A model generated the notes under the pieces. The model worked only from the letters and a program-made list of their open reading frames with translations, had not been told where the DNA came from and searched no databases. 64,000 nucleotides of DNA from Salinivibrio kushneri (GTDB lineage Bacteria; Pseudomonadota; Gammaproteobacteria; Enterobacterales; Vibrionaceae). Made by a program: the position numbers and the translations under genes. The stretch spans positions 893,001-957,000 of the forward strand of contig NZ_CP040021.1 of assembly GCF_005280275.1 (NCBI RefSeq). Direction: 5' to 3'. Shown one piece after another: positions 48,153-50,315 of this stretch; positions within the stretch are counted from its first letter, which is position 1, and each line of letters starts with the position of its first letter.

Positions 48153-50315
48153 ATGAGCTACCAAGTTCTCGCACGTAAGTGGCGACCCCATAATTTTGAG
48201 TCTGTTGCTGGTCAAAGTCATGTGCTCACGGCCTTGGCCAATGCGTTGGATCATGACCGCTTGCACCACGCATACTTGTTTAGTGGTACTCGCGGTGTGG
48301 GTAAAACCACTATTGCGCGTATTTTTGCCAAAGGGCTTAATTGTGAGCAGGGCGTGTCGTCATCGCCATGTGGACAGTGCGCAACCTGCCGTGAGATCGA
48401 CGAGGGCCGGTACGTTGACTTGCTGGAGATTGATGCCGCTTCTCGTACCAAGGTAGAAGACACGCGAGAGCTGCTCGATAACGTCCAGTACAAGCCTGCA
48501 CGTGGCCGTTATAAGGTGTACCTGATTGATGAGGTACACATGCTGTCGCGCCACAGCTTTAATGCATTGTTAAAAACGTTAGAAGAGCCGCCCGAATACG
48601 TGAAGTTTTTGCTGGCGACCACGGATCCACAAAAGCTACCGGTCACCATTTTATCGCGTTGCTTGCAGTTTCATTTAAAGCATTTTGACGCCAGTCAGAT
48701 CCAAACGCAGCTAGAGCATATTCTTGATCAAGAAGGTGTCGAGGCAGAGTCACGTGCGTTAATGCTATTGTCACGGGCGGCGGAAGGCAGTATGCGCGAC
48801 GCCTTGAGCTTGACTGATCAGGCGATTGCGCTGGGAAATGGCCAAATTAGCACCCAAGCAGTGGCAGAGATGCTAGGGACACTGAGTACCGATAACGCAC
48901 TCTTACTCCTTGAAGCCTTGGCGAACCATGATGCGGTCGAGTTGATGAACATGCTGACGCAGATTGCGCACGTCGGGGTGGAATGGGATGGCTTACTCAA
49001 AGAGTTAGCCAGTCAGCTTCACCATGTGGCGTTGGCTCAAGCACTGCCTCAGACGCATGATGACGACAGTGGTGAGCAAGCACGGATCCACGCCTTGGCC
49101 TCGCGACTTGCGCCACAAGATGTGCAGCTGTGTTACCAAATGGCACTGCAAGGACGGCAAGACCTGCCTTACGCCCCTGATGGGCGGGCGGGATTAGAAA
49201 TGGTCTTGCTGCGTATGTTGGCGTTTCAGCCGGTCAAAACCGTGCCGTATGAACCGGCTACCATATCGGTGCCGACACATGATCCCGCTTCTGTGTCACA
49301 GCAGCCGACAAAAAAAGATCCTTCGCAAGCGCTGAATGCATTAAAAGCGCAGGTCTCATCGGCCAGTGTGGCGTCGCCAAACCAAGTGCCACCAAGCCAT
49401 GCGCCTCAGCAGCCGATGGCAAAGACTGGCGCGGAGGAGCCCAGCATAGATGCGTCCGGCAGTGGGGCACGTGACGCGAGTGTCGTCGAGCAAAGCCAAC
49501 CGGTGGTCGAAGACTCGGTGCCGGATGCAGCGTCCGCGAGTGAGCCATCTGCCTCTTCGCCTGCCTCTAGCCTTATCCAGGCGCGTAATCAGCTGCGTAG
49601 TCGTATGAAACGTCAAGCTGATAAAACGGGAGATGGGGTAAAAAAGACGGGACGGACACCGGCCAAGACTGATGCGTTATCTGTGCTCGATCGCGTAGCG
49701 ACGGCGGCAGAGAGTGCATCGCCTGTGTCCGCCCCGGCGCATCAAACGGGCAATTCGACGTCAGCCCCCCAGCAGACATCGCATGGAAATACGATGTCGT
49801 CAGAGCCTTATCAATGGCGTCCTACCCAGACTGTGTCACAATCGCCTGAGGTCGTACCAACCCTGACCCCTAAGTCGATAAAGCAGGCGCTAGAGCATGA
49901 AAAAACGCCTGCCATGCGTGACAAACTGGTGGAGGAAACCAATGCGCAAGATCCTTGGTGTGCACTGGCAGACAGCTTGGACGTAGAGCGATTGGTCAAG
50001 CAAATGGCACTCAACGCGGCCATGTCCCAGCAAGGTGAGCAGGTACAGCTTATCTTACGCCCGGATCAATCGCACTTGAATACCGAAAAAGCCCAGCAGC
50101 AATTAACTCAGGCCTTGACGACGGCATTGGGTGCCCCCATAACCTTAGAGGTACAGCTCGGGGAATCGGGAATCACACCGTTAGAGCGGCGAGAGCAGCT
50201 CTATCAACAAAAATTAGCGCAGGCGACACACAGCCTGCATAATGATCCGAATGTCACTTTTATGCTTCAACGCTTTGCGGCGGAGTTAGAGGAAGACAGC
50301 ATTCGACCAATTTAA
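48153..50315 (+). CDS. dnaX: DNA polymerase III subunits tau and gamma
   Basis: A 720-residue clamp-loader subunit (tau). Domain I carries Walker A GTRGVGKTT (about 45-53), the zinc-binding cysteines of CEQG...CGQCATC (about 64-79), and the Walker B-like LIDEVHMLS. Residues about 370-560 form a low-complexity linker rich in Ser, Ala, Pro and Gln. The C-terminal domains (about 590-720) bind DnaB and the polymerase alpha chain. A slippery A AAA AAG at 49640-49646 can yield a short gamma protein. Tau is longer than the E. coli 643 residues because of the linker. Part of apt-dnaX-ybaB-recR. Confidence 0.95.
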   Translation: MSYQVLARKWRPHNFESVAGQSHVLTALANALDHDRLHHAYLFSGTRGVGKTTIARIFAKGLNCEQGVSSSPCGQCATCREIDEGRYVDLLEIDAASRTKVEDTRELLDNVQYKPARGRYKVYLIDEVHMLSRHSFNALLKTLEEPPEYVKFLLATTDPQKLPVTILSRCLQFHLKHFDASQIQTQLEHILDQEGVEAESRALMLLSRAAEGSMRDALSLTDQAIALGNGQISTQAVAEMLGTLSTDNALLLLEALANHDAVELMNMLTQIAHVGVEWDGLLKELASQLHHVALAQALPQTHDDDSGEQARIHALASRLAPQDVQLCYQMALQGRQDLPYAPDGRAGLEMVLLRMLAFQPVKTVPYEPATISVPTHDPASVSQQPTKKDPSQALNALKAQVSSASVASPNQVPPSHAPQQPMAKTGAEEPSIDASGSGARDASVVEQSQPVVEDSVPDAASASEPSASSPASSLIQARNQLRSRMKRQADKTGDGVKKTGRTPAKTDALSVLDRVATAAESASPVSAPAHQTGNSTSAPQQTSHGNTMSSEPYQWRPTQTVSQSPEVVPTLTPKSIKQALEHEKTPAMRDKLVEETNAQDPWCALADSLDVERLVKQMALNAAMSQQGEQVQLILRPDQSHLNTEKAQQQLTQALTTALGAPITLEVQLGESGITPLERREQLYQQKLAQATHSLHNDPNVTFMLQRFAAELEEDSIRPI
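49628..49672 (+). promoter_or_regulatory. Programmed -1 frameshift element in dnaX
   Basis: The heptamer A AAA AAG (49640-49646) is in the right phase: the zero frame reads GTA AAA AAG (codons 496-498). GGGAG at 49628-49632, an anti-SD stimulator, lies 7 bases upstream, near E. coli's AGGGAG at 10. After a -1 slip eight codons (DGTDTGQD) lead to a TGA at 49670-49672, giving a gamma protein of about 506 residues. No strong 3' stem-loop was found by eye. Confidence 0.7.

Follow-up and report, generated by a model that had tools for sequence, protein, structure and literature searches.

A probable programmed -1 ribosomal frameshift signal in dnaX of Salinivibrio kushneri and its conservation across the Vibrionaceae

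The dnaX gene of Salinivibrio kushneri very probably contains a programmed -1 ribosomal frameshift signal, a reading drawn from comparative sequence analysis to which we assign a probability of about 0.93. The gene lies in the window, by which we mean the whole 64,000-nucleotide stretch analysed here (contig NZ_CP040021.1, positions 893,001 to 957,000), from a genome of two contigs and 3.44 Mb. The signal centres on an in-phase A AAA AAG heptamer that is preceded by a Shine-Dalgarno-like element, followed by an early stop in the -1 frame, and preserved in most of the Vibrionaceae genomes that we sampled. From these features we infer slippage at some rate, assistance from the upstream element, and the production and use of a shortened gamma protein. 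The relevant features, all on the forward strand, are as follows.

48153..50315, + strand: dnaX, tau open reading frame of 720 aa, with ATPase, lid, domain III, long linker, domain IV and domain V
49310..49316, + strand: second in-phase heptamer, A AAA AAA, where a slip would yield 440 aa
49620..49883, + strand: tau domain IV (PF12168), residues 490-577, of which a shifted gamma would retain just the first residues
49628..49632, + strand: Shine-Dalgarno-like GGGAG, 7 nt (ATGGGGT) ahead of the heptamer
49640..49646, + strand: slippery heptamer A AAA AAG, in phase, Lys497-Lys498
49646..49672, + strand: -1 frame tail DGTDTGQD and stop TGA (49670-49672), which would end gamma at 506 residues
49647..49706, + strand: downstream stretch without an E. 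coli-like stem-loop, as judged by folding
49887..50303, + strand: tau domain V (PF12170), residues 579-717, missing from a shifted gamma

The reading frame starts at ATG 48153 and runs for 720 codons, and the nearest named relatives of its product are DnaX proteins of Salinivibrio species. An apt-like gene lies upstream, and ybaB-like and recR-like genes lie downstream (names by resemblance), matching the annotated gene order around dnaX in E. coli. Codons 496-498 read GTA AAA AAG, which gives the heptamer the X XXY YYZ phase; it lies in the region separating domains III and V. Translation after a -1 slip at this point gives KKDGTDTGQD and then TGA, so that the predicted gamma would be 506 aa long and, owing to the early stop, would lack most of domain IV and all of domain V. 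The first-pass annotation had proposed the in-phase heptamer, a -1 slip ending after eight codons at 49672 and a gamma of about 506 residues, and all three agree with our reading of the sequence.

In the mechanism that we propose, a ribosome would hold AAA in the P site and AAG in the A site, with both codons read by the one kind of lysine tRNA found (anticodon UUU), and the two tRNAs would move back by one base to pair with AAA AAA. The slip would be aided by base pairing between GGGAG and the 3' end of 16S rRNA. A slipped ribosome would add eight more residues and stop, giving the 506-aa gamma with ATPase, lid, domain III and linker, while an unslipped ribosome would go on to make the 720-aa tau, which includes domains IV and V, the ones that bind DnaB and the polymerase. 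All four lysine tRNA genes recovered carry the UUU anticodon, among 94 tRNAs called by ARAGORN in stretches holding 95 Rfam matches; this survey scored 150 of 182 candidates, so that an overlooked lysine tRNA gene is possible. We also weighed the second heptamer, at 49310-49316, as a rival slip site and set it aside. It is present in three of the six intact genes of the genus, appears as C AAA AAA in a fourth and is gone in two, and is probably incidental.

The annotation had also placed the site later in the gene than in E. coli. This holds for the length of the product, as gamma would indeed be longer, but not for position relative to the domains. The lysine pair is at residues 497-498 in this protein and at 429-430 in E. 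coli DnaX; on the Pfam profile for tau domain IV both pairs align near positions 13-14 when match starts are taken as ungapped, and the putative frameshift site is accordingly the same site as in E. coli rather than a displaced one. Domain III spans residues 233-357 here and 232-358 in E. coli (Pfam), where domains IV and V have limits of 417-498 and 500-640. The first lysine lies 140 residues past the domain III match here and 71 in E. coli, and the longer gamma thus reflects a linker extended by about 69 residues. In 101 Vibrionaceae genes the codon of the first lysine varies from 456 to 595, yet the distance from it to the end of the gene is 207-229 codons in 100 of them and 119 in the remaining one. 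The linker before the site is variable in length, and the part after it is nearly constant.

Loss of the heptamer in relatives was one of two findings that the first-pass annotation had named as refuting its reading, and our sample shows the heptamer to be conserved. We sampled 111 of 197 Vibrionaceae genomes (30 loci from the search, 80 among the matches listed, and one further locus), and an in-phase A AAA AAG is present in the tau linker of 104 of these 111. An automatic anchor, consisting of KK followed by an xLDR-like motif, worked in 102 of the 111 genes and located 101 of these heptamers; the other three (L072, L073 and L075) were found by direct reading. Seven genomes have no intact in-phase A AAA AAG: L047 and L126 carry A6G behind a frame broken upstream, dnaX is cut by a contig end in L059, and in L080, L082, L083 and L115 the run comprises at least seven A. 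Within the window's genus A6G occurs in all eight genomes, six of them with intact genes; in G006 (L047, L006) and G001 (L019, L007) the frame is interrupted in an assembly.

Several comparisons bear on whether this conservation reflects the nucleotides or the protein. When the 102 anchored genes were divided into windows of 28 codons, the in-phase heptamer occurred in 101 of 102 windows at the site versus 4 of 2409 elsewhere in the gene; 43 of the 102 site windows contain two or more KK pairs, from which the script picked the heptamer-bearing pair if one existed. The residue before the lysines may be P, V, G, S, A, T, K or L and has changed at least 29 times on a tree of N-terminal domains, and the third base of its codon is A throughout the 101 genes. 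As background, 28% of P, V, G, S, A, T and L codons beyond codon 365 end in A. Raw fractions overstate independence in a sample of related genomes, and the tree counts allow for this kinship.

In the -1 frame a stop occurs one codon past the two lysines in 82 of the 101 genes (TAA 37, TGA 26, TAG 19) versus 2565 of 38460 positions elsewhere (6.7%), making stops directly after the slip approximately twelve times commoner than background. The residue after the lysines is itself variable, with seven kinds and at least 34 changes on the tree, and the next -1 codon is nonetheless a stop in those 82 genes. With the three directly read genes added, the one-codon stop is found in 85 of 104, and the -1 frame closes within ten residues of the first lysine in 104 of 104. 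Because the third base before the lysines has been kept as A through at least 29 residue changes, and because -1 stops are enriched, the site looks to be under selection at the nucleotide level across the Vibrionaceae.

The window's genus departs from the family in its stop. The immediate stop has been lost, with a stop eight codons on, in seven of its eight genomes; S. proteolyticus (L005) still has TGA at the family's immediate position. This TGA is gone from the window, S. sharmensis, S. siamensis and ES.052, which share a TGA after eight codons. This longer tail is seen in five of the six intact genes, and the two interrupted genes carry the same TGA by reading. Given that the one-codon stop prevails in the family, the longer gamma tail is probably a derived state. 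Conservation of the tail is uninformative taken alone, since the same nucleotides encode a conserved part of tau.

Upstream of the heptamer, the annotation had noted GGGAG seven bases away, and it is indeed found at 49628-49632. A 16S rRNA 3' end in this genome reads CACCTCCTTA, and the computed duplex of GGGAG with CCUCCUUA has an energy of -7.4 kcal/mol, equal to the E. coli value and matched by just 0.8% of control places. In the 101 family genes, anti-Shine-Dalgarno pairing is strongest for 8-nt windows whose ends lie 6-9 nt ahead of the heptamer, with means of -2.8 to -3.1 kcal/mol (-3.1 for windows ending at 7 nt), compared with -0.66 at random linker places and about -1.0 to -1.4 in the stretch 12-30 nt upstream. 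Within 4-14 nt of the heptamer, 69 of 101 genes reach -3 kcal/mol or better versus 19% of control places. In a separate count, 77 genes reach this value and 24 fall short; among the 77, pairing ends 5-8 nt before the heptamer in 33 and 9-14 nt before it in 30. The element is strong in five genomes of the window's genus (-5.7 to -7.6 kcal/mol), weaker in L048 (-3.3), and not visible by eye in two others (L007/L019 and L006). It is weak in genus g10 (mean -1.6 in four genomes) and absent in the one g7 gene. The review PMC5009743 gives a Shine-Dalgarno spacing of 9-14 nt for -1 shifts. The 7-nt spacer in the window falls outside that range, with GGGAG present and pairing at -7.4 kcal/mol.

The annotation had seen no E. 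coli-like stem-loop 3' of the heptamer, and folding bears this out. Folding the 60 nt downstream gives -14.5 kcal/mol, a value equalled or bettered by 194 of 200 shuffles (z +1.45), with a nearly empty centroid that retains one 3-bp stem only; the corresponding E. coli fold reaches -20.2 kcal/mol with a defined stem. No stem-loop like that of E. coli emerged from folding sequences one by one, from synonymous shuffles or from folding an alignment of six sequences of the genus. Downstream z values are +0.67 to +1.26 for the six genomes of the genus and average +0.09 against synonymous shuffles for the 101 family genes, although the z test is a weak one, the known E. coli stem itself scoring just -0.11 and -1.28. 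The alignment fold of the genus proposed 15 pairs, of which eight never vary, two change on both sides and three have breaks, and we did not take it as evidence. Genus g3 differs, with a mean z of -2.2 downstream of the heptamer over 13 genes. Members such as L050 and L058 have a 9-pair stem 15-37 nt past the heptamer, with changes on both sides at five pairs and breaks at four; this stem-loop is specific to its lineage and more distantly spaced than that of E. coli, which lies about 5 nt past the heptamer.

Three other explanations deserve consideration. Gamma might arise from slippage of RNA polymerase on the A run rather than of the ribosome, as in Thermus thermophilus. Such slippage is known in dnaX according to PMC3711429 and PMC5009743, and certain relatives of the window's gene do have runs of nine (L115) or ten A (L225, L229). 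Compared by description, T. thermophilus dnaX resembles the gene here in that gamma and tau come from one reading frame, but it does so with nine A and RNA polymerase slippage, as opposed to the A6G and proposed ribosome slippage of the window. The run in S. kushneri has six A, whereas slippage runs are often eight or longer according to PMC3711429; moreover, it is preserved as A6G in the phase suited to ribosome slippage, with a Shine-Dalgarno-like element enriched upstream. We consider transcript slippage very unlikely as the source of gamma here.

Still less probable is that A6G has been kept for its two lysines, or by codon bias, with no programmed frameshift. The lysines themselves may be favoured, given that the anchor found a KK pair in 102 of 111 genes. 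However, other KK pairs in the same genes share the heptamer context in only 9 of 144 cases, a count that includes three genes lacking an automatic anchor, and neither the unchanging A before the lysines nor the roughly twelvefold excess of -1 stops immediately past the slip fits this account. Proteolysis of tau, known to produce gamma in Caulobacter (PMC5009743), would reduce the heptamer to a relic. A relic would be expected to decay at freely changing positions, which has not happened in 104 of 111 genomes, and we give this explanation the least credence of all. A programmed ribosomal frameshift remains the reading that we favour.

E. coli dnaX is the type case of the dnaX -1 frameshift, and the similarity proposed in the first-pass annotation is supported at the sequence level by heptamer, phase, Shine-Dalgarno-like element, stop and conservation. 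Both genes have A AAA AAG at the start of tau domain IV, with GGGAG upstream at the same computed pairing energy. They differ in spacer length (10 nt in E. coli, 7 here), in the distance to the -1 stop (one codon in E. coli, eight here) and in the 3' stem-loop of E. coli, to which we found nothing comparable. A 1997 paper by Blinkova reportedly dealt with conservation in Salmonella, and a search of the open-licence literature found no paper on Salinivibrio dnaX. Vibrio dnaX frameshifting is already recorded in Recode-2, and GeneTack has a nine-genus logo, according to PMC3711429; compared by description, these Vibrio genes belong to the same bacterial family and use the same heptamer. The one-codon -1 stop found in 85 of 104 Vibrionaceae genes is absent from seven of the eight genomes in the window's genus.

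The signal is a well-supported example of an already-known kind of device, its one unusual aspect being a possible two-part form that lacks a stem-loop. We tentatively suggest, at somewhat less than even odds, that a signal made up of a Shine-Dalgarno-like element, often closer than 9-14 nt, and A AAA AAG with no 3' stem-loop operates in the genus and perhaps in much of the family, and that the genus has also come to use a TGA eight codons further along in place of the immediate stop, acquiring its own short gamma tail. Natural variants in stem-loop, Shine-Dalgarno spacing and stop distance would help to establish which elements the dnaX signal requires. PMC5009743 notes a controversy over whether gamma matters, on which comparative evidence for selection on the shift site across the Vibrionaceae has a bearing.

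Beyond the family, we examined 54 of 56 genomes from the rest of the order, leaving out two very small ones. No dnaX was found in three of the 54, and the 51 genes recovered include three truncated by the limits of the stretch and three that stop at 374 aa. Beyond codon 340, 29 of the 51 contain an in-phase A AAA AAG, at positions not necessarily homologous to the Vibrionaceae site, and 18 of these have a one-codon stop; the heptamer is missing from that region in the other 22. Outside the order, the 29 best-scoring of 131 matched genomes gave no gene in one case and an in-phase heptamer in 2 of 28.

A few relatives have unusual frames. The dnaX frames of L240 (G021) and L241 (G113), 513 and 466 aa long, close before reaching the A run, perhaps through indels in the assemblies. 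L115 (G027) has nine A at the site, at codon 496 (A AAA AAA AAT GAA), and transcript slippage might occur there as well. At codon 600 of L239 (G017), also a Vibrionaceae dnaX, A AAA AAA G follows a Shine-Dalgarno-like AAAGGGGAG; the zero frame stops four codons past the two lysines and the -1 frame is open for 230 codons, such that tau would need the slip. PMC5009743 describes role reversal, in which the shift produces tau. L239 is the only genome of its genus in the sample, and its arrangement may reflect a one-base sequencing error. In L225 and L229, of family f138 in the order, the zero frame ends right after ten A at codons 371-374, whereas no stop interrupts the -1 frame over the 300 codons checked; this looks like the two-ORF dnaX type described in PMC3711429; L227, the third member of f138, has one long dnaX frame.
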